From a virus: a stretch of 64,000 nucleotides of DNA. The notes beneath the pieces are model-generated. The model searched no databases and was not told the DNA's origin. It saw nothing but the letters and a program-made list of their open reading frames with translations. Positions 35,765-60,206 of this stretch are shown here, piece after piece. The translations under genes and the position numbers were made by a program. How positions within the stretch are numbered: the stretch's first letter is position 1; the number at the start of each line of letters is the position of its first letter. The stretch covers positions 1-64,000 of the IMG/VR virus record IMGVR_UViG_3300025138_000014, one strand, 5' to 3'.

Positions 35765-36056
35765 CGAAAAAAATATTCTTTGTAAGGAAAGAGACTTGAC
35801 TGCAGAATTATATAATCTTTGGATTACTAAACTGCATGACTTTGAAGATATTCCAGAAAAATACGAACAGTATATGAAAATGATTGATAATCTTGAACCT
35901 TATGCAAATATGCTTAAAGAAGCCATAAGAGAAAAGAATAGTGAAATATGTAAACACTATGGAGTTAATTCTATTTCAGATACACCTCATTCAGTAGAAT
36001 GTATAAACAAATATGGTTATGATAGACCTAATGGAGCCGTACTGGAAAGAGGATGA
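35739..36056 (+). CDS. Small helical helper protein (105 aa, TTG start)
   Basis: The frame starts at TTG 35739, with the strong ribosome binding site ggaggg at 35724-35729, inside the end of the previous oxygenase gene. The product is highly charged and helical (ERDLTAELYNLWITKLHDFE), and looks like a small acyl-carrier-sized helical bundle without a Ser attachment motif. It has two Cys in the C-terminal part (EICKHYG, VECINKYGY). I do not recognise a family. It overlaps both oxygenase genes, so it is probably made with them; it could be a partner or inhibitor of one of these enzymes. Confidence 0.6.
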   Translation: MTLIQTIVDEKNILCKERDLTAELYNLWITKLHDFEDIPEKYEQYMKMIDNLEPYANMLKEAIREKNSEICKHYGVNSISDTPHSVECINKYGYDRPNGAVLERG

Positions 36057-36526: not shown

Positions 36527-37190
36527 AATAGAAGAATATCTGCCTAAAATAGGTCCCTTTAGCATATACGCTCTATCTCATTTAATAACTCAAAGTGAAA
36601 AGTTTAATAATCACTTAGCTATGACTCAGCCAGATAATAAGTTTGAGTTAATGTATGCCAACTGGATAGCCACTGGTAATGAAAGTTTCATAGATTATTA
36701 TAAAGATATAGTTGCTCAAGCGTGCTTTGCTGAATTTCTTGAATGGTATGAGTACATAGCAAAGAACATACTACGAGATGATGTTCAAAGTGAACTTGGT
36801 ATTAAGTTTGACTATGATGCAATTAATTGGGAAAATGAAGTAAAAAAGTCCGAACTATTTGGATGGGCTTGGAGAACAACAGACTACAAACACTTTATGA
36901 ATAATTTGGATAAAGTCAGCAAAATCGGTGCTATGATGAACAACTTTTTTAATGATAGAAAACCGTTAAGCACTTTAGATGCAGATTACTTTGAATCAGA
37001 TCATGCTCAACTTGTACTCGACTCAATAGATAAAATTTTAATAAATAATGATAGACAAGAAATAATAGATCATTTAAATACAGAGAAAATTCTGTGTATG
37101 ATAGAAGTGTACGGTTGGGACAATCGGTTTAATAATATTCTATTGAAATGGATTTCAGACAATAGGAATAAAGTAAAACACTGGGCATGA
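36510..37190 (+). CDS. Unrecognised helical helper protein (226 aa, probable TTG start)
   Basis: The frame opens with TTG at 36510 within the end of the oxygenase gene; no good ATG is near, and the coding potential is continuous from about this point. The protein is all-helical and acidic with many Trp/Tyr. The segment MYANWIATGNESFIDYYKDI is similar in pattern to CYAKWISEDFNEDFFAALDD of the 57310-57717 minus-strand gene, which also sits next to an rSAM gene. This suggests a shared helper family. The stop overlaps the start of rSAM 4 (ATGA). The function is unknown; substrate recognition for the partner rSAM is one possibility. Confidence 0.65.
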   Translation: MDTIYKIEEYLPKIGPFSIYALSHLITQSEKFNNHLAMTQPDNKFELMYANWIATGNESFIDYYKDIVAQACFAEFLEWYEYIAKNILRDDVQSELGIKFDYDAINWENEVKKSELFGWAWRTTDYKHFMNNLDKVSKIGAMMNNFFNDRKPLSTLDADYFESDHAQLVLDSIDKILINNDRQEIIDHLNTEKILCMIEVYGWDNRFNNILLKWISDNRNKVKHWA

Positions 37191-38089
37191 TAATATCAAT
37201 AAACCCAACCTACTTTTGTAACTTTAGATGTGATTTCTGCTATCTATCTCCTAAACAATTGGGTGACCAGAAACAGATTTACCTTGAAAAACTAGATGAA
37301 TTATTAGCCCAAGTCCCAGATATAGAACACATTGACTTGTACGGCGGCGAAGTCGGCGCAATGAAAAAGTCCTATTTTTATGGCCTTAAAGAAGTCATTA
37401 GAAAATATTACTCTGGTACAATTAATATAAACACAAATTATTCTATGATGCATCCAGGCTTCTTTGACCCAGATGTTTATCTTTCTGTATCGTATGATTT
37501 TGAAGCAAGAGAAAAGTCTGAACTTGTCTTTAATAATATGATGATGGCTACAGCTCCAATGGCTGTTCTAGTCTTGGCTTCACCAACAGTATTAAAAAAA
37601 GATGTACTGGAGATGATAAGTTTACTAAATATGTGTAGTTCAGTCAGGTCTGTTGAAATTAAACCATATTCTACCAATCAAGCAAATGCTCATCCAGTAA
37701 CACATAAAGATTTTGAAGATCACGTTATTAAGTGGTTAGAGTATGAAGATGAAATGAAGTTCCAGTTTGTAAATGCAGATAGAATCATAGACTCATTGGA
37801 AGGCAACTATAATGCATTCTCTGACGATCATATTTATATTACACCAAATGGAAAATTCGGAGTATTAGAATTTGACAAAGAGGATAAAGAATACTTCCTA
37901 GAACTGGACAGTTGGGACGACTATATACTATGGACTCAAAAAGAAAAAACTGAAATGTCTCCTATCTGTACTTCTTGTAAGTATTTTGGTAAGTGCTTAA
38001 CAGAACATTATAGATATGTGAAAGACCTTACAAATAGTTGTAATGGATATAAAGGATTACTAGATTGGGCTGATTTAAATCTAAATTAG
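37187..38089 (+). CDS. Radical SAM enzyme (rSAM 4)
   Basis: The 300-residue product has the cluster motif at Cys11, 15 and 18 (PTYFCNFRCDFCYL) and a GGE-like DLYGGEVGAM. The C-terminal part has CTSCKYFGKCLTEHYRY and a final Cys in NSCNGY, giving a single twitch-like auxiliary cluster set rather than full SPASM. It is smaller than its neighbours. The ATG overlaps the previous stop (ATGA), coupling it to the 36510 helper. It is the last gene of the 29116-38089 cassette; a late promoter for the fibre module follows. Confidence 0.87.
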   Translation: MIISINPTYFCNFRCDFCYLSPKQLGDQKQIYLEKLDELLAQVPDIEHIDLYGGEVGAMKKSYFYGLKEVIRKYYSGTININTNYSMMHPGFFDPDVYLSVSYDFEAREKSELVFNNMMMATAPMAVLVLASPTVLKKDVLEMISLLNMCSSVRSVEIKPYSTNQANAHPVTHKDFEDHVIKWLEYEDEMKFQFVNADRIIDSLEGNYNAFSDDHIYITPNGKFGVLEFDKEDKEYFLELDSWDDYILWTQKEKTEMSPICTSCKYFGKCLTEHYRYVKDLTNSCNGYKGLLDWADLNLN

Positions 38090-46026: not shown

Positions 46027-48123
46027 ATGGTAACTAAACTCAGTACACATCTAAATACAAGCCTAGGTAATGTTGTACAAGGTGTAGACTCAGAAGATGT
46101 AATTACACTAATCGGCACCACAAAAGTAGCTGTTGACTCAGGTACTATTGGTAACTTTATTGCAACCATTTCACCAACTTCACCAAACCCTGGCATTGTT
46201 ATTACAGGATCTGGTTCAAACAGTGCAGCGGCTTTTCTAAGGTTAGATTCAGCCGTTGCAGTAACGAAAACTGGTACACAAACATTAACAAATAAAACAA
46301 TTAACCTTACTGCTAATACTTTGACTGGAACTGCAGCTCAATTTAATGCAGCTATGAGTAATGGTTCATTTGCTACTATCGGTGGAACAGAAACTTTAAC
46401 AGATAAAACTTTAACAAGTCCAGTAATTAACTCTGCAACAATTAATAATGGTACAGCAAATAATCTAGCAACACTTAGTTTAAGAGATGCTACAACTAAT
46501 ACTAAAAAACTTATAGTAACATCCAATGCCGCAAGCCCAGTTTTATCGGCTGATAGAACACTAACACTTGATGTTAACAATGCAGATAGAACATTATCAC
46601 TAATGGGTAATGTTACATTAGGCGGAGCATTAACTACATCAGGCGCTCACGCAACAACATTTACTACAGGCGGAACAACCGCACTTACTTTGCCAACATC
46701 TGGTACAGTTGTTACAAAAGATTCAGCTGGTGGAACAATCTCAGCTAACTATTTTATTGGTAATGGTGCACAGTTAACAGGTGTTGCTTCAGGCGATATC
46801 GTAGCTGATACTACTCCACAATTAGGAGGAGATTTAGATGCAAACGGAAACAATATTCTATTAGACAATGCTACAAAAATTAGTTTTGGTTCAGACACAC
46901 TTCAAGTAAAAACTGATGGAAGTAGTAATAGTATTATTCAAGGTTCCAGTACAACATACCTCAGAGGCAGTAGTGTTAATATCGGATCAAATGGCGGCAG
47001 TGGAGGATATCCAAATACAATACTTGTAACTGGAAACACAAGTACAAGTCACGTTGAAATGCTTTATGGCACAAGTAAAAAGTTTGAAACAACCAGTACA
47101 GGTGTTACAGTAACAGGTAATATAACTGTATCTGGTACAGTTGATGGTGTAGATGTTCTAACAATTGGTAATAAAGTAAATGGTATTGAAGCATCAGCTG
47201 ATGTTACAGATGCTACTAATGTTGGAACATCTCTTACAGCATTTAGCACATCAACAGATGATGCGCCAGGAGATTTAATTCCAGTCTATGATGTTTCAGC
47301 TAGTGCTTGGAAAAAGATGACTATTGCTAATGCGGCTCTTGGTGGAGCCCAAGGTAACAAAGGTCAAAAAGGTGAAGTAGGTGGAGACGGTGGAGCGGGT
47401 AGTAAAGGACAAAAAGGTGAAGTCGGCGGAGACGGTGGAGCGGGTAGTAAAGGCCAAAAAGGCGAAGTAGGTGGCACAGGTGGAGCAGGTGGAGCGGGTA
47501 GTAAAGGACAAAAAGGTGAAGTAGGAACATTTGGTGGCGGAAACATCACAATAACCAACCAAGCAATTTTATCTAATGCGTCATCTAACTGGACAGGTGA
47601 TCCAGGCACCCAAGGTAAAATTCAGTACCACTCAAATAGATGGTATATTGTTTCAGACCAATCTTCAGACAGAATTGTTCAGTTTAGAAGAAATGGAACA
47701 GATGTGTCATATGTAGATAACTCAGGTGTGTATCAGGGTACAGCAACGTCAGCAAATTGGTCTGACTTAGCGGAGAAATATAAAGCAGATGCAGTTTATG
47801 AAGCAGGTGATTTAGTAGGTATCGGCGGAGCTGAAGAGATTACTAAATACACTAAAGATATGCCATTTGCTGGAGTTATATCGGAAAAACCTGGCGTGAG
47901 AATGAATTGCAATGAAGAAAATATGGATGATCCACTATGGCCATATGTTTGTTTAAAAGGTCGTGTTCCAGTTAAGATTAATGGAACAGCAATTAAAGGC
48001 GATTATATTATTACAGACGATAATGGAAAAGCAAAGTCTAGCAAAGTTAAGCCAGATGATTTAAGTCTGCTTATCGGCATTGCTCTTGAAGATGGGACAG
48101 ACGAGGTAGAGGTTAAAATTTAA
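46027..48123 (+). CDS. Collagen-like tail fibre protein (698 aa)
   Basis: The first 440 residues are fibre shaft with TLTNKTI and TLTDKTLTSPVINS repeats, as in the 19713 protein. Residues 443-499 are a collagen-like rod of 19 Gly-X-Y triplets built from GQKGEVGGDGGAGSK units, without proline. All eight lysines there are in the Y position and are followed by Gly (GNKG, GQKG, GSKG), the canonical lysyl-hydroxylase context. After the rod comes a short domain, then SANWSDLAEKYKADAVYEAG and LKGRVPVKINGTAIKGDYII, the same C-terminal domain as in the 27355 fibre. The gene is followed with no gap by two CHxS-tail genes. A collagen hydroxylase-like enzyme is encoded at 60844. Confidence 0.88.
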   Translation: MVTKLSTHLNTSLGNVVQGVDSEDVITLIGTTKVAVDSGTIGNFIATISPTSPNPGIVITGSGSNSAAAFLRLDSAVAVTKTGTQTLTNKTINLTANTLTGTAAQFNAAMSNGSFATIGGTETLTDKTLTSPVINSATINNGTANNLATLSLRDATTNTKKLIVTSNAASPVLSADRTLTLDVNNADRTLSLMGNVTLGGALTTSGAHATTFTTGGTTALTLPTSGTVVTKDSAGGTISANYFIGNGAQLTGVASGDIVADTTPQLGGDLDANGNNILLDNATKISFGSDTLQVKTDGSSNSIIQGSSTTYLRGSSVNIGSNGGSGGYPNTILVTGNTSTSHVEMLYGTSKKFETTSTGVTVTGNITVSGTVDGVDVLTIGNKVNGIEASADVTDATNVGTSLTAFSTSTDDAPGDLIPVYDVSASAWKKMTIANAALGGAQGNKGQKGEVGGDGGAGSKGQKGEVGGDGGAGSKGQKGEVGGTGGAGGAGSKGQKGEVGTFGGGNITITNQAILSNASSNWTGDPGTQGKIQYHSNRWYIVSDQSSDRIVQFRRNGTDVSYVDNSGVYQGTATSANWSDLAEKYKADAVYEAGDLVGIGGAEEITKYTKDMPFAGVISEKPGVRMNCNEENMDDPLWPYVCLKGRVPVKINGTAIKGDYIITDDNGKAKSSKVKPDDLSLLIGIALEDGTDEVEVKI
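47353..47523 (+). repeat. Collagen-like Gly-X-Y repeat region
   Basis: The region encodes 19 uninterrupted Gly-X-Y triplets, with four GQKGEV units separated by GGDGGAGSK-type spacers. The DNA repeat (about 45 bp unit) is nearly exact, so length variation by slippage is expected. Lysines occur only in Y positions. Confidence 0.95.
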
Positions 48124-48510
48124 ATGCCCGATTATAATACACTAGATGCTTCACTACAAGCAAAAGCGGGTGGGGCACTGAGAACTTTTGATAAAACTAT
48201 GACTTTTACTGTAACTGCATATGTATTACAATCAGTTACTACTACTCAAGCAGGCCCTACAAGCACACTTGGCGTTACTCAAAGATTTGAATTTACAGGT
48301 GCTGCCGATTCACTTTACGACGATTATCTTGACTCTGGTATTTACACTGGGGCACGTATATATTCTCAAGATGTTATTGACTCAATTTCTAATACAATAC
48401 AAAGAACTGTAGATCAGATAGAAAGTCGAATCACTGATAGATCAATCTCAGCTTTAATTTGCCACAATAGTTGTCATACTAGCTGCCATACTTCAAGAGG
48501 GCGCAGATAA
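48124..48510 (+). CDS. CHxS-repeat-tail protein 2 (probable rSAM substrate)
   Basis: This 128-residue protein starts immediately after the collagen-like fibre gene. Its N-terminal part has a fibre-like beta region (TFDKTMTFTVTAYVLQSVTT), then RFEFTGAADSLYDDYLDSGI and a helix ending VDQIESRITDRSIS. The C-terminus is CHNSCHTSCHTSRGRR (codons 48460-48507): three CHxS units and RGRR, the same as in the proteins at 30172 and 48510. The next protein shares most of the sequence (TFDKT, GAADSL-[YF]-D, IESRI-x-RSIS). All Cys are in the tail. Its stop overlaps the next start (TAATG). The conserved repeat at the end, close to rSAM genes, suggests modification at the tail. Confidence 0.85.
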   Translation: MPDYNTLDASLQAKAGGALRTFDKTMTFTVTAYVLQSVTTTQAGPTSTLGVTQRFEFTGAADSLYDDYLDSGIYTGARIYSQDVIDSISNTIQRTVDQIESRITDRSISALICHNSCHTSCHTSRGRR

Positions 48511-48896
48511 TGGGAAATATGACGAGAGACAGTGTCGACTCTTATATCCAAACTTATTCTGGAGCGAAGTTAAGAACATTTGACAAAACTATTACTATAA
48601 CAACTACAGCATATCAGAATAACAATCCCACTGCTATGGGTGGAACAGGTACTAATACTACGACACATAGGTTTGAATATACAGGTGCTGCCGATTCACT
48701 ATTCGATAACTATATTGATGGAGGTATCGCAGTGGGCCAAAGAGTTTATGCGCAAGATATTGTAGACACTTTAGAGGATGCAGTACAAAGAACAGTTGAT
48801 TTGATTGAAAGTCGAATTGATAACAGATCTATCAGCGCAGCGTTATGTCACAGTAGTTGTCATACAAGCTGTCACACATCGAGAGGAAGACGCTAA
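48510..48896 (+). CDS. CHxS-repeat-tail protein 3 (probable rSAM substrate)
   Basis: This is a paralogue of the preceding protein, 128 residues long, with TFDKTITITTTAYQNNNPTA, RFEYTGAADSLFDNYIDGGI and VDLIESRIDNRSISAALCHS. It ends CHSSCHTSCHTSRGRR (codons 48846-48893). The start overlaps the previous stop, and its own stop overlaps the start of rSAM 5 (TAATG), so substrate candidate and enzyme are translated in series. That order (small protein followed directly by an rSAM gene) is typical of peptide-modifying systems. The protein body is conserved between copies as well as the tail, which would fit a fibre or spike tip that must also fold. Confidence 0.87.
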   Translation: MGNMTRDSVDSYIQTYSGAKLRTFDKTITITTTAYQNNNPTAMGGTGTNTTTHRFEYTGAADSLFDNYIDGGIAVGQRVYAQDIVDTLEDAVQRTVDLIESRIDNRSISAALCHSSCHTSCHTSRGRR

Positions 48897-50080
48897 TGGC
48901 GATGCAAGAATCATATTGTAAGCAAATGAGATATTCTGGACCAGAAAGTCTAGCACCATCAGATGCTACAAAGTTTGATGTTTTAATTCAAATGGAAGTA
49001 TTAGCTGGATGTGAGCAAGGATGTTTAGGTTGTTTTGTAGATAAGGCTATTGATCCAAAAAGTAATCAGCAAATTATTGATCGTGCTAAAGAACTGGCAG
49101 ATGGTGTAAAAAGAACTGGTCTTAATTTAAGAGAATTTGTTATAGGACCAACGGATCTGTTTTCTGCTAAAAACACTAAAGAAGTATTGGAGAATAAAGT
49201 TGTCCAAGAAATTATGCGAGAACATACAGGCGCTAGAATTGCATCCCCTGCAAAATTTGATAAAGCGCCTATGGAAAAAGTTAGAGAAATATTTGATATC
49301 CTAGATGATGAGAATAAATTCCGTCGTGATATGATTATTGAGTTTATTATGCCTATTGGCCGTATTAACGAGATGTTAGATGACGAGGACTATTATAAGT
49401 CTGTTATGGAAAAAGTTGACTTTTTTAAGAACGATACTCCTAAGATGATGGATTGGTCTTGGACTTTACAGGCTTCAAATGTAGTCGGTAAACAAATAGA
49501 CAAAGAAAAATACAACAGACTTATTAAAAGATCAGTTGAAGATTTTGGTACTATCATGGAAATGAACCCAGCGTTCTCCCGTGCACCAAATCAGATAATT
49601 CAAAGAAAAAATCTATTCGGTTGGAATAAATTCCTTAGTTCTGTTATTGATGAAGATAATGCTAAAGAGACAGTAATGTCCATGGCTAATTTATATTGTA
49701 ATTCAATAAACTTTATTGGTATTACTATTGTACCCGGAGAAAATGGACCGACTACACATCTTAATGTTATGCTTCACGAGCAAGCATTTTTCTTATCAAA
49801 TAAAAATCTTGATGTTACTGGACTTACATTTGAAGAAATTCTACAACGTAAACACGAGTTGGTTACAAAAGGTATAAATAAATCAAGTAAGGTAAAAGAT
49901 TGTCAAGACTGCCAGTTCGCTATGGCTTGTGCAAATAGATTAGTATTTGAGGCTCAAGAGTCAATGAATATTAATGGTTGTGTTTTACCAAAAGAAACAT
50001 TAGAGCATTATAATCCATTCGACTTTACATGGAATGACGATGCAGAAAAATATAATATGAAAAACGGAGCAAGAGCATGA
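48896..50080 (+). CDS. Radical SAM enzyme, GPTD family (rSAM 5)
   Basis: I start at the ATG overlapping the previous stop (48896); a longer frame runs back into that gene. The 394-residue product has the cluster motif at Cys39, 43 and 46 (LAGCEQGCLGCFVDK) and the block FVIGPTDLFSA, which is shared by all five genes of this array. The C-terminus has CQDCQFAMACANR and a further Cys in NGCVLPKE, a twitch-type auxiliary cluster. It is directly after the CHxS-tail proteins 2 and 3, so it is the leading candidate for modifying their tails. Its sequence differs from the other four by a longer N-terminus. Confidence 0.88.
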   Translation: MAMQESYCKQMRYSGPESLAPSDATKFDVLIQMEVLAGCEQGCLGCFVDKAIDPKSNQQIIDRAKELADGVKRTGLNLREFVIGPTDLFSAKNTKEVLENKVVQEIMREHTGARIASPAKFDKAPMEKVREIFDILDDENKFRRDMIIEFIMPIGRINEMLDDEDYYKSVMEKVDFFKNDTPKMMDWSWTLQASNVVGKQIDKEKYNRLIKRSVEDFGTIMEMNPAFSRAPNQIIQRKNLFGWNKFLSSVIDEDNAKETVMSMANLYCNSINFIGITIVPGENGPTTHLNVMLHEQAFFLSNKNLDVTGLTFEEILQRKHELVTKGINKSSKVKDCQDCQFAMACANRLVFEAQESMNINGCVLPKETLEHYNPFDFTWNDDAEKYNMKNGARA

Positions 50081-51183
50081 TTGGTCAAAATCTATACTAT
50101 CTTAACAGTTCAAAATATGTGAGTAATACGAGCAATCTTGGAACAGTAATCGGTGAATTAAACTCATACTACCACACCAAAACTCCTAGAAATATAGTTA
50201 TTGTTCATATGCAAAATGGTGCACAACATATAGCCGGAGCGCATGAACACATTGCCAATGAAATTAGAGCAGGTGCTGCAGATTTAATTAGCTATAAGAC
50301 TTGGGACGAAGTTGACAATATTGATTATATTCAGAATAGTGAAAAAGCAATTATTCTGTTTGCTACAGTTGAAGATATGATAACAGTCTTGGTAAGATAT
50401 ACAGCTGGGCTTATAAAAGCGTCAGGTTTCTATCCAGCAGATTCAGACTTCCAAGCCATAACCAGTGCATTTGTAAATAAGATATTTGATGTTGACTTAA
50501 TGTTTACATATATTAATAATCACGAAATTGTTGCTGATATTCCTGGTCACTTAACTTCTTTTTGGGCAGGCGATACTAGACCAGCAGGTAGAAACACTCC
50601 TTATGAAGTAATTTTCCAGAATGGTAAAAACTTCAGCTATGATCTTTTGTTTTTCTTAAATGATTATTATAGATGTAGCGGAGTCCAAGGTTTAATTAAA
50701 GAGAAATTTACAGTTCATCAATCTACTATGGCACAAGATGTTATGGAACACTTTACATCACGTCGGCACTATATGGCTTATATTTTATCAGTCATTGATT
50801 GGATGAATGCAAATGTGTCACGTAACTCTCAATATGCTACAGATAAGAAACCATGGATTGTTGATGCTTATATCACTAAAGCCAATTCTGGCAACTATAC
50901 AGCTGCTTTTTATAAGCTGGAAGAGTTATGGAACCTAGTCAAAGATGATACGGCATTTATTGCAGCACACCAAGACAAAGCTGATTCGGATGCTACTGGT
51001 TGGGAATATATGGATTTATATACAGAATTTAAAAATGTATTTCCCATTGTCAGAAAAGTTTTACAGAATGATTTTGATATGAATAATCTTACTATGGAAT
51101 TAAGGCTTATTAATACAGACGTTCAGTTTTTCTCAAAAAGACAAAACAGGATCCCATACTTAATTCACAAATACCCTTTATAG
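50077..51183 (+). CDS. Unrecognised helper protein of the rSAM cassette (368 aa)
   Basis: The family is not known to me. The protein is mixed helix/strand. It has KAIILFATVEDMITVLVRYT near residue 90, a second helical part, and a basic C-terminus (FFSKRQNRIPYLIHKYPL). The layout is similar to that of the 31421 protein of the first cassette. It overlaps rSAM 5 by four bases (ATGA) and is followed by the 51198 gene. I see no Cys cluster, no signal peptide and no transmembrane helix. A scaffold or recognition role in the same pathway as rSAM 5 is the best contextual guess. Confidence 0.72.
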   Translation: MIGQNLYYLNSSKYVSNTSNLGTVIGELNSYYHTKTPRNIVIVHMQNGAQHIAGAHEHIANEIRAGAADLISYKTWDEVDNIDYIQNSEKAIILFATVEDMITVLVRYTAGLIKASGFYPADSDFQAITSAFVNKIFDVDLMFTYINNHEIVADIPGHLTSFWAGDTRPAGRNTPYEVIFQNGKNFSYDLLFFLNDYYRCSGVQGLIKEKFTVHQSTMAQDVMEHFTSRRHYMAYILSVIDWMNANVSRNSQYATDKKPWIVDAYITKANSGNYTAAFYKLEELWNLVKDDTAFIAAHQDKADSDATGWEYMDLYTEFKNVFPIVRKVLQNDFDMNNLTMELRLINTDVQFFSKRQNRIPYLIHKYPL

Positions 51184-51197
51184 GATTATAATATATC

Positions 51198-51962
51198 ATG
51201 AATGAAAAAACAGACATTGAAGCTAAGTGCTATGTGCTACCATTAGCACCTCAAGACTTAGTGGGAATTTACAAGCATAAAGAAACTGTTGAAGATTTTA
51301 CTTTATGGGTAGATTATTTAATATCTAAAGAAAAGCTATCAGCAAAACACATAATTATATATTTGGCTAATACTAATTTTAGAGCATCATTTGCGCAAAT
51401 TGATGATGATCTTATTCGTGAGTATATTAAATCAGATTTCATGGTAGATTGCCCTTTACTTGCAAGGATAGTTGTTCTAATAGTTAAACATTATTATAGA
51501 CATGAACCAAATGAACAAGAGCGTGAATTGTATAGTATATTCTCACCTTCAAATATTAATATTTTTATCAGAGATAATAACGATCTAGTCAAAGAGTTAG
51601 TTCGTACTATAGCAAGTGCTATACCATTTGTATTAAATAAATTTTATGATGGTCTTGACGAAGAGGGTAAAGAAAAAGAAATTAATATAAGAGAATTTGT
51701 AAACGATATTACTATAGCAGATAAACCATCTAATTGCGGTCCGAATATTGCTAGATTGCTCACAGTAGGTTTTGATGCATTCTTACTTATTATTCAAAAA
51801 GAAGGCTTGTCTATGGAATACAATAAGCAAGTTTATAACGATGCTCCTAAATTTCTGGGAAAAGATTTATATTTTATTTTCTGTAACACTAAAATTACAG
51901 ATCATATTATGGATTTCTTTCCTGACGACTGGATAAAATCATATGATAGTACATCTGAATGA
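51198..51962 (+). CDS. Unrecognised helper protein of the rSAM cassette (254 aa)
   Basis: This is an acidic, largely helical protein (EDFTLWVDYLISKEKLSAKH, LARIVVLIVKHYYRHEPNEQ, LVKELVRTIASAIPFVLNKF). It has a few scattered Cys but no C-x2-C motif. I recognise no family. It lies between the 50077 helper and rSAM 6 and overlaps rSAM 6 by 20 bp. The number of such acidic helical proteins beside the rSAM genes (six in this window) is notable and suggests that they belong to the system. Confidence 0.72.
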   Translation: MNEKTDIEAKCYVLPLAPQDLVGIYKHKETVEDFTLWVDYLISKEKLSAKHIIIYLANTNFRASFAQIDDDLIREYIKSDFMVDCPLLARIVVLIVKHYYRHEPNEQERELYSIFSPSNINIFIRDNNDLVKELVRTIASAIPFVLNKFYDGLDEEGKEKEINIREFVNDITIADKPSNCGPNIARLLTVGFDAFLLIIQKEGLSMEYNKQVYNDAPKFLGKDLYFIFCNTKITDHIMDFFPDDWIKSYDSTSE

Positions 51963-52965
51963 TACATATGCTGGATACTGGAATTTCAAAAAAGATAAAT
52001 CTCCAGTAAATCAGGCATTTTTAAGAACAGAGATCAACCTTGACATTCTTCACGGCTGTAGCCAGATGTGTCCAGGCTGTTTTATTCCCAGAAAAAACTT
52101 AACTGATCCAAATGGAATGATAGAACTTCATAAGTTGCTTATCAATGGGCAATTTTATCCAGATGAAATCACTATTGGTCCAACTGATATATTTGATGCA
52201 GAAAATTTTGATGAAGTTATGAGACATCCTGGGCTCAAACTTCTTTATGAAATATCAGGTGTCGGATATACAACTACTTTACTACAACATGAAGAAGTTG
52301 TAAAGAGAAAACTTGCTATGATCTGGGATATTTATCAGCACATACATAGAATGCCAGATATGGATTTCAAAATTGTATTTGATATTGACAAATATCTTGA
52401 TGGAGAACTAGATGATTGGTATAAAAAATTAGAGTTATTCAATCTAGGTTCCGTTCAATTTAGGGTAAACTACCATAAAGGTGTGTTTGATAGAATTGGA
52501 TATAATGAGTTATGTAAAAGAGTTAAAGAGGATTTTAATACTCCGATTATTATTACTCCAAGTTTCTTAACTGATAGAAATGTAAGAGGAAAGGTTGATC
52601 AACATCTTGCTTCATTTAGACAAGAGTTATTAGATCAGAAAATAGATAGAGAATGGCTTCAGTATTATACATTCTTTGACGCCGAGTTTAATGGACTTGG
52701 TTGCCAGAACTATTCTTTTTATAATGGAAAGCTATATACAAATCCATTTTTATATGATAATATAATCCAGAGAACACCTAAGTTTGAAACAACTATGGAT
52801 GAAAATACCCTGTTTGATAATATAGATTATGCTCAACAGGTAGATGACTGTAATGGGTGTGAATATATGATGAGTTGTGCAGAGCGCAATATTCACTTAT
52901 ATATGGAGTCACGTAATTTGGAATCATGCGTTGCTCTTAAAGAGTATATGTATGCCCCTCATTAA
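51943..52965 (+). CDS. Radical SAM enzyme, GPTD family (rSAM 6)
   Basis: The 340-residue product has the cluster motif at Cys39, 43 and 46 (LHGCSQMCPGCFIPRKN), the family block ITIGPTDIFDAENFDEV, and a C-terminal CNGCEYMMSCAERN with a final Cys in LESCVALKE. The ATG at 51943 lies within the end of the previous gene. The last 14 bases overlap the start of rSAM 7. It belongs to the array of five tandem paralogues (48896-56241). The strand and helix pattern after the motif fits a partial TIM barrel. The substrate is unknown. Confidence 0.88.
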   Translation: MIVHLNDTYAGYWNFKKDKSPVNQAFLRTEINLDILHGCSQMCPGCFIPRKNLTDPNGMIELHKLLINGQFYPDEITIGPTDIFDAENFDEVMRHPGLKLLYEISGVGYTTTLLQHEEVVKRKLAMIWDIYQHIHRMPDMDFKIVFDIDKYLDGELDDWYKKLELFNLGSVQFRVNYHKGVFDRIGYNELCKRVKEDFNTPIIITPSFLTDRNVRGKVDQHLASFRQELLDQKIDREWLQYYTFFDAEFNGLGCQNYSFYNGKLYTNPFLYDNIIQRTPKFETTMDENTLFDNIDYAQQVDDCNGCEYMMSCAERNIHLYMESRNLESCVALKEYMYAPH

Positions 52966-54115
52966 AAATAATCTATTCTATGAATTAACTACAGAGACAC
53001 AAACCAAACCAGTATCAGCCGTAAAACTTCAGCTTGATGTATTAGACGGATGCCATCATAAGTGTCCGGGTTGTTTTGTTCACAGACGTGGTAATTCTAG
53101 TAATAAACATCAGTTAAGTGATGCTAAAAAATTCATAAGAAGTATAACAGACCAGGGTATTCTAGTTGATGAAATGCTTATTGGTCCTACAGATTTTCTT
53201 GCTTCAGAAAATTTCTATGAAGTTATGCCAGATCTGTTAGATATAATTAATGAAAATTCTCCTATTCTTGCATTTGTTTCAACTCTTATTGATGGAGACT
53301 TGAAGCGATGGACTCAATATATTACAGATAATATTAATATCAATACTGAAATAGAAATTGGTATTGCTACAAATCCTGCAAAGTTTTATGAAGAAGGCTA
53401 TAGACAACTGATTCAAGATAAGTTAGATTATATAGATAAGAATTTGGAACACGAGGTAACTTATACTTTTGTTGTAAATATTAGAGATTATGGTATTGAC
53501 TATGAAAAATTACATAACCATTCTGTCGTTTGTTTTAAAACGGTTTTAGACTTTGTTCCGTCTGTTAGTAGGTCACATAAGAATTACCTCATATTAAAGA
53601 TTTTAGATAAATTTAACGTGTTTTTTAATGAGCTAAGTGCTTATAAAGAAAGCAAAATAAATAACATTATGGTAGACCATTCACACGGTGGTCTGAATTA
53701 TACTGTTTTAAACTACAAGACAGGCAAGTGGTATTTAAGTCCTTTTATGTATGAGAACATGGCTATCTATGATGATATGTTTCATATAGATAATTTCAAT
53801 GATGTTACTGCTATTGTGGAGAAACAGATACAAAGAGCAAAAGGAACTGAGTGCGAAGATTGCCCTCTATTCTTTAGTTGCTATAATAGAAAAATTATAT
53901 TACTCAGAGATTATCTTGGCGTTGATAGATGTATTGCACCTAAAGAAAACATGATGGCACATATACATAACTACAACGGTCCTGCTCAGACTATGTATGA
54001 CTGGGATGGTTATTCAGTTGAGAACGATAAAAACGGATATAGAAAAAAGTTTTTAGTGACTCAAGAGAATGACCCAGAATTAGAACGACTCAGAGAAATA
54101 TCCTATGTTAAATAA
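52952..54115 (+). CDS. Radical SAM enzyme, GPTD family (rSAM 7)
   Basis: The start at 52952 (MPLIKNNLFYEL) is chosen because the upstream part of the open frame is only the overlapping end of rSAM 6. The 387-residue product carries Cys34, 38 and 41 (LDGCHHKCPGCFVHRRGN), LIGPTDFLASENFYEV, and CEDCPLFFSCYNRK with a later Cys in DRCIAPKEN. It has an extra C-terminal tail of about 55 residues after the auxiliary-cluster region (NYNGPAQTMYDWDGYSVEND), a feature shared in part with rSAM 5. It overlaps both neighbours. Confidence 0.88.
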   Translation: MPLIKNNLFYELTTETQTKPVSAVKLQLDVLDGCHHKCPGCFVHRRGNSSNKHQLSDAKKFIRSITDQGILVDEMLIGPTDFLASENFYEVMPDLLDIINENSPILAFVSTLIDGDLKRWTQYITDNININTEIEIGIATNPAKFYEEGYRQLIQDKLDYIDKNLEHEVTYTFVVNIRDYGIDYEKLHNHSVVCFKTVLDFVPSVSRSHKNYLILKILDKFNVFFNELSAYKESKINNIMVDHSHGGLNYTVLNYKTGKWYLSPFMYENMAIYDDMFHIDNFNDVTAIVEKQIQRAKGTECEDCPLFFSCYNRKIILLRDYLGVDRCIAPKENMMAHIHNYNGPAQTMYDWDGYSVENDKNGYRKKFLVTQENDPELERLREISYVK

Positions 54116-55241
54116 CGATTGGGCAGACATTGTAAATAACGGCAAAATGTTAGAAGAATATTCTGCAATTAGCCAAATGAAACAATACAAGATTCAAGTA
54201 ACTCTTGAGCTGCTTGAAGGCTGTTCTTATCTTTGCCCGGGTTGTTTTGTAAAACGTAGGGGTAATTGGCATCCAAAATCAATAGCATTATTTCATAGTT
54301 TAGCATATGAACTTAAAGATAGAACTGATATTGTTCTTGATGATATTGTTATCGGACCTACAGATTTCTATGGCGCAGAAAACTTAGAAGAAATACTTGA
54401 TGATCCTAGATTGGCTGATGCTATTCTTATGATGCCTGAGGATAATAGAAACATACAACATAACTGTTCTATTTTAGGTTCTCTATCTGAAAAAGATATT
54501 GAGAGTAAAATTAAGAAAGTTGAAAATTCTAGGCTGGGAGCTGTAGTTAAATGTTGGGATGTGCAAATTGCACTAGATTTAAATAGGTTACTTAACGATG
54601 ATGATTATAGACAAGCACTTGAAAATAGAGTAAAGATGTTTGAAGATAGTTCACTAGAATTTGAAATATCAATGGCAACTAACATTGTAAATAATATTGA
54701 AAGTATATTATTTGAAGCCATAAATTACACTAGAGAAAAATATTCTACAGTTATAGAAATACTTCCATCTGTAGTTAGGTCATTAAGTGCTAATAGCAAA
54801 CATGCCGTGAAACTATTTAAGTGGAACTCCATGCTTGATACTTTTGCCAAAGAGCCGGATTTTAAAAATAAGTTTCATTTCCTACAAGGAGATATATCTC
54901 ATAAGACTTTTCAATATGCAGTTGTTAATATACATTTTGGAAAGTTTTATGCTTCACCATTTATTTATGAAAATGCTCAGATTTATAAAGAATCATTTGA
55001 AATTAAAATTAATGATTCTATCCATGAATCTATACTAGCACATAAAGATGCAATTGTAAACAAACAAATAGAAAGTAGTGCAAATAAAGAGTGTGGTTCT
55101 TGTAAATATTTAACCATATGTTCTCATAGAATGATTCCACAAGTAATGGACACATTTTTTAAAGACCGATATGAGTGCATATTAAATAAAGATGTAATAA
55201 GTATCTGGGATTATGAGGTGTATCGTGGGAATAGTTATTAA
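54105..55241 (+). CDS. Radical SAM enzyme, GPTD family (rSAM 8)
   Basis: The 378-residue product has Cys40, 44 and 47 (LEGCSYLCPGCFVKRRGN), DIVIGPTDFYGAENLEEI and a C-terminal CGSCKYLTICSHRM with a final Cys in RYECILNKD. The CFVKRRGN stretch is very similar to CFVHRRGN of rSAM 7, so these two are the closest pair in the array. The start ATG overlaps the end of rSAM 7 by 11 bases and the gene end overlaps rSAM 9 by 29 bases. One protein can be mistaken for a housekeeping enzyme, but the array as a whole cannot. Confidence 0.88.
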   Translation: MLNNDWADIVNNGKMLEEYSAISQMKQYKIQVTLELLEGCSYLCPGCFVKRRGNWHPKSIALFHSLAYELKDRTDIVLDDIVIGPTDFYGAENLEEILDDPRLADAILMMPEDNRNIQHNCSILGSLSEKDIESKIKKVENSRLGAVVKCWDVQIALDLNRLLNDDDYRQALENRVKMFEDSSLEFEISMATNIVNNIESILFEAINYTREKYSTVIEILPSVVRSLSANSKHAVKLFKWNSMLDTFAKEPDFKNKFHFLQGDISHKTFQYAVVNIHFGKFYASPFIYENAQIYKESFEIKINDSIHESILAHKDAIVNKQIESSANKECGSCKYLTICSHRMIPQVMDTFFKDRYECILNKDVISIWDYEVYRGNSY

Positions 55242-56241
55242 CAATAAAAGAGCTGCCCAAGCAGATGCAGACTTTGATGTAAGTTTAGGTCAAGGACATG
55301 AAATAAAAGTCCAGTTCAATTGTGAGATATTATCTGGCTGTGAGTTTAAATGTAAAGGATGTTTTGTTAATAAATTAGGCAACAATGTTGGGTCATTTGA
55401 TAGGTTAAACAATGCCATTGATCTGTTTAGCGCAAATGGATATAGAGTATCAACAATTAATATCGGACCCACAGATTTATTCGGTAATAATAATGTTATT
55501 GAGTTATTGAAAGATGAAACCTTTCGTGAATGTTTAAGCAAAGTTTCTACTATACAATTCGTCACGACCCTAATAAACATTTCGTCAGAAGTAATTGATT
55601 TACTTAACAGCATACCTAAAATAGATGGGTTTATGTATGATGCAAACATAGCTTTACAACCACCAGTAAATTGGGATATGATAGAGGAACGGCTAAAACT
55701 ACTCAACGGTTTTACCGATGATCTAAATTATTATATGGTTTATAATATGGGTAATGATGACGAGTACAATAATAAAGTATTAGAAATGTCTGATATTGTA
55801 GATGATAGATTTGATTCTATTCTTACATTAAATCCATCATTCTTTAGAGCGCCAAAAAGTAAAGTACAAACACATCTAATTGAGAAGTGGAAAAATTATG
55901 ACTTTTCACCTGACTTATATCCAAAGACAATTATTGATAAATCGCAAGGTGGAAGTCTTGAACTAAATTACACATACTGTAATGGTAGGTTTTTCTGGAC
56001 TCCATTTGTATATGATATTGCTATGATCGGAACTAAGGAGTTTGAAGTCAAAGATGAGAACGATATTGAATCTTGGACTGAAGCTAAATCATTTCAATTT
56101 ATGAAACAATTAACGTATTCTAGTGAAACGGAAAACTGTGGTTCTTGCGGTAACATGATGACTTGTATAGACAAAGGGGTTCTAAGTTATATGGAACATC
56201 ATTCAATTAAATCTTGTGTCTTTCCTGGAGTCTTTTCATAA
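55213..56241 (+). CDS. Radical SAM enzyme, GPTD family (rSAM 9)
   Basis: The 342-residue product has Cys43, 47 and 50 (LSGCEFKCKGCFVNKLGN), INIGPTDLFGNNNVIEL and CGSCGNMMTCIDKG with a final Cys in IKSCVFPG. An alternative start is the GTG at 55225, which has GAGG in front of it. It is the last + strand gene of the array, and its 3' end overlaps the 3' end of the opposite-strand rSAM 10 by 43 bp, so the two convergent transcripts are complementary at their ends. No terminator is visible between them. Confidence 0.87.
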   Translation: MRCIVGIVINNKRAAQADADFDVSLGQGHEIKVQFNCEILSGCEFKCKGCFVNKLGNNVGSFDRLNNAIDLFSANGYRVSTINIGPTDLFGNNNVIELLKDETFRECLSKVSTIQFVTTLINISSEVIDLLNSIPKIDGFMYDANIALQPPVNWDMIEERLKLLNGFTDDLNYYMVYNMGNDDEYNNKVLEMSDIVDDRFDSILTLNPSFFRAPKSKVQTHLIEKWKNYDFSPDLYPKTIIDKSQGGSLELNYTYCNGRFFWTPFVYDIAMIGTKEFEVKDENDIESWTEAKSFQFMKQLTYSSETENCGSCGNMMTCIDKGVLSYMEHHSIKSCVFPGVFS

Positions 56242-57323
56242 TCAAATCCTGTTATAAGATTTTGACCAGTTTTATCCATGTAATTAAACCACATTCTCAT
56301 AATACAATCTGGTAAATCTCTCTCACGATTTTTCCAGTCCCATTGTGTATAGCATCTAAATCCACACTTGTTGTACCACTTACATGATAAGCAACCATTT
56401 TCATCCATATAAGCCTGCATCATGCCAGTATTATCTTTACGCTCAAACTTTGTATTAAAGTCCCTTTGATCGTATCTATCCCATCTACAATTAGATGTAG
56501 AATTATCTGGAAATATGGTAACTTTATTCAGAGCCAAACAGTGCATGTGATTAGACTCATTATAGATTAGATCCTTAATAGGGTTAATATCAGGATAGTT
56601 GTGATATACAAACTTTAGAAACTCCAGATATTTACTATCGGACGGAATCATATAATCATATCCACGGTCTGGAATATAATCGTCAAAATAGAAGTTGTCA
56701 AATTTATCATACAGATAATGAAAATACTCATCATCATCTGCCATGAACTTTTCTATACTGAGAGTAGTTGCTACCATATTAATTGAAGTAATATAATCAG
56801 CAAAATATTCAATGTTCTTTGCGTAGGGACCTTTTGTTGGTCTCCCGTCAAAGTCATAAGAGCAAATAATAAAGCTAGGTATATCAATAGCATTTAAATC
56901 ATCTAATAACTTTTTTAGTCTTTCTCTTTTACTAAATTGAAAAGAAGTAACCCACACAATTTTTATTGTTTGATCATGCTCGTCATAAATCTTTTTAACA
57001 GCTACTAGGAAATCATAATAATATGGATAAAACTCTTCCGATATTCTATCTTGAAATAATTCTCCTCCAAGCATATTGATCTGAATAATATCAGCACGAC
57101 CTTTCATCTTTATAACGTGTTCTTCAACCAATTCAAGCTTTGAAAATATACCCTCACGAGATAGTCCAACTTCAGACTTTTTATCATGGTGGCAGAACGA
57201 GCAGTTGAGATGACAATTCTCAAATAGAGTCATCTCAATCTCTGCTATATCAGGCCGTTTAGCCTCAAGCAAAGTTCTTGTAAAATCATATTCTGGGTTC
57301 GACTGAACCTTAGAGTTGATCAA
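56199..57323 (-). CDS. Radical SAM enzyme (rSAM 10), paralogue of rSAM 2
   Basis: The 374-residue product carries Cys37, 41 and 44 (FENCHLNCSFCHHDKKSE) and INMLGGELFQDRI. The C-terminal part has CRWDRYDQRDF, then CLSCKWYNKCGFRCYTQWDW and a final Cys in LPDCIMR, an auxiliary-cluster set. The MLGGELFQD block, the P-S-x8-F segment (MIPSDSKYLEFLKFVY) and the terminal cysteines match those of rSAM 2. The start overlaps the end of the 57310 helper by 14 bp. It is the last gene of the minus-strand operon from 60206. Confidence 0.87.
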   Translation of the reverse strand: MINSKVQSNPEYDFTRTLLEAKRPDIAEIEMTLFENCHLNCSFCHHDKKSEVGLSREGIFSKLELVEEHVIKMKGRADIIQINMLGGELFQDRISEEFYPYYYDFLVAVKKIYDEHDQTIKIVWVTSFQFSKRERLKKLLDDLNAIDIPSFIICSYDFDGRPTKGPYAKNIEYFADYITSINMVATTLSIEKFMADDDEYFHYLYDKFDNFYFDDYIPDRGYDYMIPSDSKYLEFLKFVYHNYPDINPIKDLIYNESNHMHCLALNKVTIFPDNSTSNCRWDRYDQRDFNTKFERKDNTGMMQAYMDENGCLSCKWYNKCGFRCYTQWDWKNRERDLPDCIMRMWFNYMDKTGQNLITGFDYEKTPGKTQDLIE

Positions 57324-57717
57324 ACATCATTTCCTCTTCATAGTATTTCCTTATATCTGGAACCATTCCTCTGCTTTCATCCCAATCTTCAAGTACAATA
57401 TCTAGGATAGCATGATAAACATCTGGATCGGTAGTATATCTTTTAAAGTATGGATCGTTATTAAAAAGTAAATCTACATCATCTAGTGCGGCAAAGAAGT
57501 CTTCGTTAAAATCTTCGGAGATCCATTTAGCATAACAGATAGCCACGGCATATGATTTTGCTGGATAAAGCCAAATATCCACTTTCTCATAAAAGTGCAT
57601 GATTGCATTATTAATAATTTCTTCATCAATAACAATATCAACTTTGTTTAGATCATCTTCATGTTCTGTTACCATATGGTGAAATGCTTTTTGTCTTACT
57701 TTCCATTCCTGCATCAC
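57310..57717 (-). CDS. Unrecognised helical helper protein (135 aa)
   Basis: This acidic, helical protein lies between rSAM 11 and rSAM 10 and overlaps both by a few bases. The segment AVAICYAKWISEDFNEDFFA resembles MYANWIATGNESFIDYYKDI of the 36510 protein, which also precedes an rSAM gene. The C-terminus is strongly acidic (RKYYEEEMMFDQL). I know no family with certainty. The repeated association with rSAM genes suggests an accessory role, perhaps a substrate-recognition partner. Confidence 0.7.
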   Translation of the reverse strand: MMQEWKVRQKAFHHMVTEHEDDLNKVDIVIDEEIINNAIMHFYEKVDIWLYPAKSYAVAICYAKWISEDFNEDFFAALDDVDLLFNNDPYFKRYTTDPDVYHAILDIVLEDWDESRGMVPDIRKYYEEEMMFDQL

Positions 57718-58769
57718 GCAACTCCTTCTAAATACATTTGCGATTCATCAACATAAGGTGTAATAGCATTTTCACTCATACCATTCATCTTTAATATTTG
57801 AGGTGCTAGTCCTTTCATCTGTTTACAATGTGCTTCAACAGTCTTTTCTCTTTTCATGTCACGTACTGTCTTTTTACAACCATTACATATTTCAAACATA
57901 GGACAACTAAAGCAAGACATTTTCATAGACTGAATATTTGGATCATGCTGTAACGGAGTTTGCATTTTTCCATTCATCTCTTCCTCAAAGTTGATTGGAT
58001 AATCCATATCATCTGCAAAAGAGCCACATGAATAATAATCTCCACCTGGATTAAATGCTCTAATTCCTTCATCACATTTTCTATTTTGCGGACAAGTTGT
58101 AGCACTTCCACCCAGCCGTCTTACCAACTGCTTTGTATTATATTCCCATTCGGTAAGACCTTGGTTATACACGTCAACGTAAATGGCATACATCTTACTT
58201 AATCTGTAAGTACTGCCTTGAACTCCAGAAGCCATAGCATAATTTAATTTACATTCGACATTCATTTCTTTAGCCAGCTTCACATTATCAATAGCACGAT
58301 AATCACTCATATCAGTCATAACGGAAATAAAGTCTGCTCTTTCACCGCAATACTTCAACATAGCATCTTGGCATCTCCAAAAGTCCTCTACAGTAAATTC
58401 GGTAAAATCACCTTTTAATCTACCACCACCAAATTGGAAAGATGTAGCAATACCCATTCGTTCGTGATTAAATAGATCAACCCACTTTTGTGGCTTCATT
58501 AAGAATGGCCATAAGTTTGTAGTGAAACTGATACTGGCTTTATAGTCATGTTCATCTAAGTGATCAATTAGATCCCAATAATATTTGGGCTTGACCATAA
58601 GTGGATCGCCACCATTAATAATTAAAGTATTGGTTTCTGGGTATCTTTTAAGGAATCTGTAGATATAATCTAAATCTAGTAACCCGGCTTTATCTGGGTC
58701 AATAGCGGTAGATGAACAGAATGAGCATTTAAAGTTACACGCTTCTGTAGGTTTAATAATTAGATCCAT
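57714..58769 (-). CDS. SPASM-domain radical SAM enzyme (rSAM 11)
   Basis: The 351-residue product has the cluster motif near its start (Cys11, 15 and 18 in TEACNFKCSFCSS) and LIINGGDPLM, the GGE-like motif with Asp. Its C-terminus is a classical SPASM region: CPQNRKCDEG, YYSCGSF, then SCFSCPMFEICNGCKKT and a final Cys in EAHCKQ. Enzymes of this class usually modify ribosomally made peptides or proteins (sactipeptide, quinohaemoprotein and anaerobic sulfatase maturases). It overlaps rSAM 12 by 10 bp and the small helper by 4 bp, in an operon that starts with a cupin. Confidence 0.9.
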   Translation of the reverse strand: MDLIIKPTEACNFKCSFCSSTAIDPDKAGLLDLDYIYRFLKRYPETNTLIINGGDPLMVKPKYYWDLIDHLDEHDYKASISFTTNLWPFLMKPQKWVDLFNHERMGIATSFQFGGGRLKGDFTEFTVEDFWRCQDAMLKYCGERADFISVMTDMSDYRAIDNVKLAKEMNVECKLNYAMASGVQGSTYRLSKMYAIYVDVYNQGLTEWEYNTKQLVRRLGGSATTCPQNRKCDEGIRAFNPGGDYYSCGSFADDMDYPINFEEEMNGKMQTPLQHDPNIQSMKMSCFSCPMFEICNGCKKTVRDMKREKTVEAHCKQMKGLAPQILKMNGMSENAITPYVDESQMYLEGVA

Positions 58770-59791
58770 TGCTTTTCTTCCGCTAGAGTCATCATCAAGG
58801 TTTTAGGTGCAGGACAGACATCATCCATCCAATAGAGTTGGTGACAATCAGATTTACAATATAAGAAAACTGGGCACTTATAACATCTCTCATCTCTATC
58901 GTTTATTTCTTCACTTATTGTGCACATTCGTGCAGGATTTAATTTTACTACCTCTGCTGGAGTATTTATAGTATCGTAATGTTTTGTTGGTGCAGTATTT
59001 GGACAACCCGCTACTGTTCCATCAGCATTAATAGTAAAAATTTTCTGCTCACAGTCACGACAAAAAGTACCAATACTAAATTGCCCATGTGAAAATTTCT
59101 TATAAACTGAGTCTAAAAATCCATTAAAGACATTATGATCTTTAGTTGTTTTGTGCATCTTCATCCACCAAGCATCTAATTCTCTATTATGTGGAAAAAT
59201 ATCAGTATTAATTTTAGCATTACCATCGTGGGTTAATCTCTCATAACTAATTTCATCAATGCCTATTGATTCCATATAGTCCGCTATCCATAGAGGTTCT
59301 AGTTTTAGAATGTCCTTAGATACCGAAATAAAACATTTCATTCTGTGACCACGAGAAGCTAAAAACTTTACATTGTTTTCCCATAGTTCTCTTTGTTTTT
59401 CATTAGAAAATCTAATATTTGGATCCCAGCTGGTTCCAATACTTCCGCCATCAATACATTCTTCAAGGAATGATAATCTTGCTTCATTTAATTTAAAAAC
59501 TAGATTGCTAGTTATTCCATGGGTACAACGGTCTCCCCATTGATCTTTAGTTATCCGATGAAATTCACGTAAATGATCCATTGGTGCAAGAAGAGGTTCT
59601 CCACCGTGATATTCTAAATGAATTTGATTTGTTCCGTTATCTAATTGATTGACCCAGTTAGCAGTCTTTATATGGTCAAAATAAATCTTTCTACCATTCT
59701 TACCGCTAGTGAAGCAATGGAAACAATTAAGATTGCAGGTTTCCGTTGTCTTCACATACACGCAAGTAAATTTTTGTGTCACTAATGCCAT
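58760..59791 (-). CDS. Radical SAM enzyme with SPASM-type C-terminus (rSAM 12), paralogue of rSAM 1
   Basis: The 343-residue product has Cys19, 23 and 26 (TETCNLNCFHCFTSGKNG), IHLEYHGGEPLLAPMDHL and IGTSWDPNIRFSNEKQRELW. Its C-terminus has CRDCEQKIFTINADGTVAGC and CYKCPVFLYCKSDCHQLYWM. All of these blocks match rSAM 1 nearly residue for residue. The start ATG lies inside the cupin gene (65-bp overlap). A GTG three codons on is also possible. The pair rSAM 1/rSAM 12 and the pair rSAM 2/rSAM 10 indicate that this minus-strand block is a partial, rearranged copy of the 29116-38089 cassette. Confidence 0.9.
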   Translation of the reverse strand: MALVTQKFTCVYVKTTETCNLNCFHCFTSGKNGRKIYFDHIKTANWVNQLDNGTNQIHLEYHGGEPLLAPMDHLREFHRITKDQWGDRCTHGITSNLVFKLNEARLSFLEECIDGGSIGTSWDPNIRFSNEKQRELWENNVKFLASRGHRMKCFISVSKDILKLEPLWIADYMESIGIDEISYERLTHDGNAKINTDIFPHNRELDAWWMKMHKTTKDHNVFNGFLDSVYKKFSHGQFSIGTFCRDCEQKIFTINADGTVAGCPNTAPTKHYDTINTPAEVVKLNPARMCTISEEINDRDERCYKCPVFLYCKSDCHQLYWMDDVCPAPKTLMMTLAEEKQWI

Positions 59792-60206
59792 AACTGAATA
59801 TCAATGCTTCCTGAGTGTTTAATGCACGATGTTTTGTGCCTTTTGGTATTTCTACTTGTTCACCTGGATTTAGTAACTTTGTAGAACCTTCAATTTCTAA
59901 TATTTTATTACCATCGCAGCAATATATTACTACATCTACTGGATCTGTATGTTCTTCAAAAGATGGACCATCAATAGGATTATAAAATATATGCATCGTG
60001 CCTTCATTATAATCAACAATCTTTTCATACATCTCAATTTTTAATGTATTCTTTTCTGCGATTAAAGCCGAAATTTTACCATAATATACCCAATAGTTAT
60101 CTTGTTCAACATACTGTATTCTGTGTTCACTATCTATAACCGAAACATTACAAACATTGAAGCACTGTTCGGAGAGAATAAACTCAAAGAACTGTTCAAA
60201 ATTCAT
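59727..60206 (-). CDS. Cupin-domain protein, possible oxygenase
   Basis: The 159-residue product has a single cupin barrel in its second half. It has FEEHTDPVDVVIYCCDGNKI with His86-x-Asp88, then NPGEQVEIPKGTKHRALN with His126. The H-x-D ... H set is the metal triad also used by Fe/2OG enzymes, and P-G-x5-P-x-G-x2-H is the second cupin motif. The N-terminal half is helical. It may be an iron enzyme or a small-ligand binder such as a sugar-binding cupin. It is the first gene of the minus-strand rSAM operon, behind a TATAAATA late promoter. Confidence 0.72.
   Translation of the reverse strand: MNFEQFFEFILSEQCFNVCNVSVIDSEHRIQYVEQDNYWVYYGKISALIAEKNTLKIEMYEKIVDYNEGTMHIFYNPIDGPSFEEHTDPVDVVIYCCDGNKILEIEGSTKLLNPGEQVEIPKGTKHRALNTQEALIFSYGISDTKIYLRVCEDNGNLQS

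Follow-up and report, generated by a model that had tools for sequence, protein, structure and literature searches.

Two gene cassettes of the window (the whole stretch of 64,000 nucleotides analysed here) probably encode a RiPP-like (ribosomally made, enzyme-modified) pathway, in which multiple radical SAM (rSAM) enzymes modify the tail at the C terminus of a fibre-associated protein. The proposed substrates, called CHxS proteins after the repeat unit of their tails, are encoded among fibre, rSAM and accessory genes (Table 1). The virus record containing the window is 151,329 bases long and includes T4-type baseplate and neck genes.

Tail proteins and cassettes of the window

The three CHxS proteins of the window share the common end CHxSCHxSCHxSRGRR, and the motif occurs exactly three times in the 151 kb virus record, at 30709, 48460 and 48846. 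The class A pair consists, as the earlier note had described and an ORF check confirmed, of two paralogues of 128 residues each. The TAA of the fibre gene abuts the ATG at 48124 with no gap, the two tail genes overlap by TAATG, and the second tail gene overlaps in the same way with the rSAM gene GCF1 (ATG at 48896), whose MxMQ start is kept among homologues. The tails had also been described as identical; they follow the same pattern and resemble each other closely without being identical.

Within the tandem pair, 58 of 110 body residues are identical. The body of the third protein agrees with them at 23 of 111 and 26 of 112 positions, with negative alignment scores and no recognisable similarity. 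The profiles of class A and class B CHxS proteins match over the last 56 residues only, and the tail may be responsible for this match. When the codons of the tandem tails are compared, 9 differences are synonymous and 1 is non-synonymous, which argues for purifying selection; together with the invariance of the tails over diverging bodies, this bears out the earlier proposal of selection on the tail. The same differences rule out a recent gene conversion of the tandem tails. All three proteins match the C-terminal part of phrog_35144, and none of them has a family above the cut-off in Pfam or NCBIfam.

Table 1. Features of the two cassettes, tails of cultured-phage homologues, and small proteins found near Bdellovibrionota cassettes.
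Feature	Position or gene	Strand	Tail or remark
Fibre protein, 'DLAEKY' C-terminal domain	27355..29097	+	upstream of class B cassette
HCFT-type rSAM/SPASM, class B cassette copy	29116..30135	+	
CHxS protein, class B, 195 aa (third copy)	30172..30759	+	CHSSCHSSCHGSRGRR
Accessory protein X	30763..31437	+	
Accessory protein Y ('FHLFxRVY')	31421..32569	+	
QDH-type rSAM	32570..33589	+	
B12-binding rSAM	33555..35252	+	nearest named family KedN5-like C-methyltransferase, below cut-off
2OG-Fe(II) oxygenase	35216..35764	+	below Pfam cut-off
2OG-Fe(II) oxygenase	36053..36526	+	
CYLS-type rSAM	37187..38089	+	
Fibre protein, conserved 'DLAEKY' C-terminal domain and collagen-like repeats	46027..48123	+	directly upstream of tandem CHxS genes
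CHxS protein, class A, first copy	48124..48510	+	CHNSCHTSCHTSRGRR
CHxS protein, class A, second copy	48510..48896	+	CHSSCHTSCHTSRGRR
rSAM 'GCF1' (CEQGCLGCF)	48896..50080	+	class A-specific; partial C-terminal Cys set CX2CX5C..C
Accessory protein A368, class A	50077..51183	+	Y profile match absent
Accessory protein A254, homologue of protein X	51198..51962	+	hhalign 99%, E 3.7e-18
GCF-type rSAM 2	51943..52965	+	
GCF-type rSAM 3	52955..54115	+	start uncertain
GCF-type rSAM 4	54105..55241	+	
GCF-type rSAM 5	55213..56241	+	
HHDK/QDH-type rSAM	56199..57323	-	
d135, small conserved protein	57310..57717	-	
CSST-type rSAM	57714..58769	-	weak matches: sulfatase maturase, DynA, SPASM models
HCFT-type rSAM/SPASM, class A cassette copy	58760..59791	-	
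Cupin protein	59727..60206	-	usual neighbour of HCFT rSAM
2OG-Fe(II) oxygenase	60263..60847	+	
CHxS protein, Pseudomonas phage DT01	PA10_00065		CHTSCHTSCHSARGRR
CHxS protein, Burkholderia phages FLC6, FLC8, S13	gp72 in FLC6 and S13		CHSSCHTSCHGSRGRR
CHxS protein, Agrobacterium phage Atu_ph07	gp170		CHSSCHASCHNSRSRR
CHxS protein, Sinorhizobium phage Phosso			CHTSCHASCHSSRSRR
RHWV[KR]V[KR]-end protein	L286:7195-7824		
RHWV[KR]V[KR]-end protein	L287:17051-17605		
RHWV[KR]V[KR]-end protein	L288:1130-1729		
RHWV[KR]V[KR]-end protein	L290:15229-15855		
RHWV[KR]V[KR]-end protein	L292:1563-2156		

Class B cassettes follow the order fibre, cupin, HCFT rSAM, CHxS, X, Y, QDH/HHDK rSAM, B12 or GCF rSAM, 2OG oxygenase, CSST rSAM and CYLS rSAM, with variation between lineages. 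In the case of class A the order is fibre, CHxS, CHxS, GCF1 rSAM, A368, A254 and the GCF2 to GCF5 rSAMs, and on long-enough contigs HHDK, CSST, HCFT and cupin are found farther along. The order of substrate before enzyme, which had been pointed out for this DNA, holds in the tandem-pair layout of class A only, whereas in class B an rSAM precedes the substrate. Protein X is common to both classes (A254 is its class A homologue). No homology between Y and A368 was detected by profile comparison, which leaves X, HCFT and the rSAM types present in both as the basis of the parallel between the cassettes. The 'DLAEKY' fibre domain precedes CHxS cassettes at many loci.

Several rSAM families differ from lineage to lineage. 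The B12-dependent rSAM (33555-35252) is present in many class B cassettes, and elsewhere it is missing or GCF-type rSAMs are found instead. It is nearest to methylcobalamin-dependent C-methyltransferases and could possibly provide a lineage-specific extra methylation.

At 60844-62781 of the window there is a fusion of GT25 and PLOD glycosyltransferase with a 2OG oxygenase, resembling procollagen lysyl hydroxylase/glycosyltransferase. A fibre of the same phage contains GxKGQKGEV collagen-like repeats (~47341-47523), and the model of the fusion finds one relative only among the fetched loci.

An obligate and widespread partnership with radical SAM enzymes

The tail motif is widespread and no local oddity. 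The motif search across phage sequences that the earlier note had proposed finds at least 118 IMG/VR contigs with the exact degenerate pattern. It always forms the very C terminus, and the bodies before it, ~100-300 residues long, are divergent beyond recognition. The pattern read backwards has 0 matches in 369 bacterial genomes and 0 in 18 virus records. Among 132 distinct tails, collected with Ser not imposed, the three Cys, the three His and the R.RR end are all invariant, position 4 of the unit is mostly Ser (at times Asn or Ala), and position 3 is mostly small or polar. None of these 132 tails has two or four units or is extended past the end, and most of the bodies in the set have no other Cys.

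The exact-pattern search itself imposes the motif, and the survey was therefore repeated from motif-free anchors, namely the HCFT rSAM, the GCF1 rSAM and the fibre C-terminal domain. With the HCFT anchor (best 80 of 376 relatives), a CH..CH..CH..R.RR protein is found in all 74 loci with enough flank, its gene directly or closely downstream; the remaining 6 loci end within 300 bp. The GCF1 anchor gives a tail protein in 47 of 47 loci, with two copies in 41. The fibre domain gives 80 loci, 11 with both a tail protein and an rSAM, 69 with neither and 0 mixed (Fisher p ~1e-13, indicative only, as the loci share descent and some are near-duplicates). The enrichment of rSAM genes beside the motif in other phages, on which the earlier proposal had been made to depend, is thus present in all three sets, and the partnership between tail protein and rSAM is obligate and widespread. 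Since just 11 of the 80 fibre-domain loci have the cassette, it is dispensable for the fibre itself.

The strictness of this pairing makes it extremely improbable that the rSAMs are anti-defence or viperin-like enzymes with no relation to the CHxS proteins. The weak PADLOC matches to prokaryotic viperins that favour such a role span ~60-120 N-terminal residues with E of 1e-7 or weaker, as expected of any rSAM core. A viperin identity was rejected, with a full-length pVip match absent and the viperin NCBIfam model reaching 26 bits versus 180.

Exactly one HCFT gene per cassette is found in 17 of 18 large virus records (ten of class B and seven of class A); the remaining one, an eighth class A record, ends 9.6 kb past the tail genes, and in class A records HCFT lies ~5-12 kb from them. 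The phage of the window has both cassettes and two HCFT genes. With one HCFT per cassette in both classes, HCFT is the enzyme common to all tails. Attention had earlier been centred on the adjacent enzyme, there named rSAM 5 (GCF1), which turns out to be a class A-specific addition; the partner found throughout is HCFT, the SPASM-type rSAM.

HCFT has a CxxxCxxC cluster motif near the N terminus (C13, C17 and C20 invariant in 26 sequences) and a complete SPASM motif, C-X10-G-X4-C...CX2CX5CX3C...C, for which the required form is CX9-15GX4C - CX2CX5CX3C - C. The invariant SPASM positions are C247, G258, C263, C302, C305, C311, C315 and C325. The SPASM-domain model matches the class B copy (29116-30132) with 28.3 bits, just above the 27-bit cut-off. 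HCFT passes none of the NCBIfam maturase cut-offs; among the solved structures, rSAM peptide-modifying enzymes and sulfatase maturases are some of its nearest relatives. The complete SPASM motif is absent in GCF1, where the C-terminal invariants are just C336, C339, C345 and C362, and the HCFT and GCF1 profiles do not align.

The system had been framed as one of phages, and it is not restricted to them. The strict tail pattern is present in 9 of 369 Bdellovibrionota genomes, where the longer contigs have ordinary chromosomal neighbours (3-hydroxyacyl-CoA dehydrogenase, cbb3 oxidase, FeoB); the remaining strict-pattern matches among the collected genomes appear to come from phage contigs within metagenome bins. 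Each of the Bdellovibrionota genomes has 1-5 peptidase S74 fibre-chaperone genes, and in 6 genomes the distance from an S74 gene to the CHxS gene is 3.4, 9.0, 6.0, 2.6, 13.7 and 4.9 kb, by a limit picked after the data had been seen and with CHxS contigs of 6-12 kb in the other 3. Two S74 proteins match the type IV pilin N-methylation motif (one of them just under the cut-off) and a third starts similarly; these fibres are apparently anchored as pilins, to judge from their N termini.

At the loci L286, L287, L288 and L292 the S74 proteins adjoin the CHxS cassette, and the N termini are pilin-like in three. Small proteins ending in RHWV[KR]V[KR] are encoded beside S74 genes near CHxS cassettes (Table 1); four of them were scanned and gave no Pfam match.

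Proposed maturation and placement on surface fibres

The cassette is also found in cultured jumbo phages, in which the CHxS genes are annotated as hypothetical proteins (Table 1). These relatives were reached via the rSAM genes; tblastn searches of annotated phages with a class A protein, and with a query of 41 residues that was composed in part, gave no matches. For one of them, Atu_ph07, published virion mass spectrometry defines a cluster 'CDS 170-215' (PMC6102473), of which the first gene is the CHxS gene gp170. The numbering is consistent, gp215 being the major head (capsid) protein both in the annotation and in the paper. The cluster boundary hints that gp170 may be present in the virions.

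In the AlphaFold monomer models of both classes, a body of helices and strands is followed by a low-confidence tail. In class B the body is confident, the tail is unstructured (pLDDT ~54), and a beta-strand precedes it. Neither class model has a PDB match (Foldseek, E <= 0.001), and so no known fibre or tip fold was found. The monomer models therefore lend no support to the earlier suggestion that the proteins are fibre tips, or to a trimeric state. The matches in the viral structure library are family members, including Atu_ph07 gp170, and proteins of Myoviridae sp. ctijX18. The latter (A0A8S5USJ7, A0A8S5USJ8 and A0A8S5USV2; 504-660 aa) match the fold of the class B body.

The tail could be a plain metal-binding tip, with Cys/His ligands from three chains, comparable to the HxH iron sites of T4 gp37 or of P2-type spikes, and with unmodified residues, and the rSAMs would then target something else, for example the fibre. 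The alternating Cys-His pairs, their fixed spacing and the fixed number of three units suit coordination, as does the beta-strand before the tail in the class B model. We regard this as unlikely, as it is the tail gene, not the fibre gene, with which the rSAMs are linked (neither tail protein nor rSAM is present at 69 of the 80 fibre loci), the HCFT layout is that of a peptide-modifying SPASM enzyme, and the pairing persists in Bdellovibrionota despite their different fibres.

That the tail is the substrate of the enzymes is, by contrast with the metal tip, very likely, and the product quite likely sits on the fibre. The layout is RiPP-like, in that the precursor gene adjoins the modifying enzymes and the core is conserved while the remainder is divergent. 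The enzyme set (rSAMs, 2OG oxygenases, cupin) is what would be needed by a heavily modifying pathway of this kind. The CHxS proteins would be the dedicated substrates of the maturation, with the folded N-terminal body as a scaffold and recognition domain and the 16-residue C-terminal tail (three CHxS units and RxRR) as the modified core. The HCFT-type rSAM/SPASM, helped by protein X, would act first on the tail, the QDH/HHDK-, CSST- and CYLS-type rSAMs would presumably act next, and the B12-rSAM, GCF-type rSAMs, cupin and 2OG oxygenases would be lineage-dependent additions. The matured protein would most likely be a component of trimeric surface fibres. In the phages these are tail fibres; in Bdellovibrionota they are S74 fibres, of which some have a pilin-like anchor. 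The matured Cys/His tail, probably cross-linked or oxidised, would help in binding the target cell or reacting with it.

Two other uses of the same enzymes were considered. Tail-repeat precursors encoded with SPASM rSAMs are typical for RiPP clusters, and there are weak matches to the PapB, DynA and DarE maturases, so that the product could be a diffusible RiPP freed from the tail and used against competing phages or bacteria. This is quite unlikely in view of the large (~100-300 aa) and foldable bodies, the position of the genes directly behind fibre genes, the Atu_ph07 virion cluster that starts at the CHxS gene, and the annotated cassettes, in which no peptidase or exporter is seen. Very unlikely, too, is a role of the CHxS protein as a chaperone or scaffold holding an iron-sulphur or metal cofactor for rSAMs that make a small molecule or modify glycans. 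A tail rich in Cys and His and the nearby 2OG oxygenases, cupin and glycosyltransferase are in its favour; the proteins match none of the known Fe-S carrier families in Pfam and NCBIfam, tandem copies with highly divergent bodies are unusual for a carrier, and the genes lie within fibre gene clusters.

For the fibre-borne, enzyme-modified tail, we tentatively suggest a covalently matured adhesin tip, in which the Cys-His-Ser tail may be turned by at least four rSAMs into an undescribed cross-linked, reactive or metal-binding group for target contact. If true, this would be rSAM maturation of a virion attachment protein and an attachment chemistry common to phages and bacterial predators; as Bdellovibrionota have this cassette close to S74 fibre genes, phage adsorption and bacterial predation may be connected. 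Enzyme-made groups on phage attachment proteins would then be a layer of host recognition missed by sequence or structure prediction alone. The rSAM genes of phages have until now mostly been left as annotations without explanation. Here about a dozen rSAMs of one phage are connected with just one short tail motif, giving a testable prediction of their role, and the enzymes form a large set of uncharacterised catalysts, probably peptide-modifying.

Comparison with known systems

The view of the earlier note that no phage system with this layout had been described agrees with our literature search, which found neither a description of such a system nor a precedent for rSAM maturation of a virion attachment protein in open-licence PMC papers. 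A jumbo-phage review (PMC7824862) contains no mention of radical SAM.

The Hxs (His-Xaa-Ser) system of Haft and Basu, discussed in PMC9062424, comprises the repeat protein HxsA and the rSAM maturases HxsB and HxsC, with an unknown product. It is similar in having a series of H-x-S repeats in a protein encoded beside paired rSAM enzymes. The CHxS tail differs in the Cys before each His, the exact number of three units and the fixed RxRR end, and the system differs in its location in a phage fibre locus with several further rSAM families. The HxsA model gave no match, and none of the three CHxS proteins matched an NCBIfam family, even with E up to 10. The rSAMs stay far under the cut-offs of HxsB (best 26.4 versus 370 bits) or HxsC (26.1 versus 267.9).

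T4-type fibre tips with HxH metal sites (gp37) and trimeric tail-spike tips offer a parallel, in that an attachment structure ends there in a segment rich in His. Such tips need no enzymes, whereas the Cys-His pairs of CHxS accompany a conserved rSAM set and the CHxS models are without a structural match to them. In the case of phrog_35144, the library gives no function, enzyme linkage or description.

The SPASM RiPP maturases (PapB ranthipeptide, DarE/DynA, CteB) and the anaerobic sulfatase maturase resemble the enzymes described here in the rSAM core and the SPASM cysteines. Maturases of this type usually have the substrate gene adjacent, as here, and some of the families act on Cys or Ser side chains. 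They differ in that their known substrates are small peptides or sulfatases, while here they would be fibre-linked phage proteins, and the matches of the window rSAMs are far below the family cut-offs. In general, among the known systems, the proposed mechanism is closest to SPASM rSAM peptide maturation.
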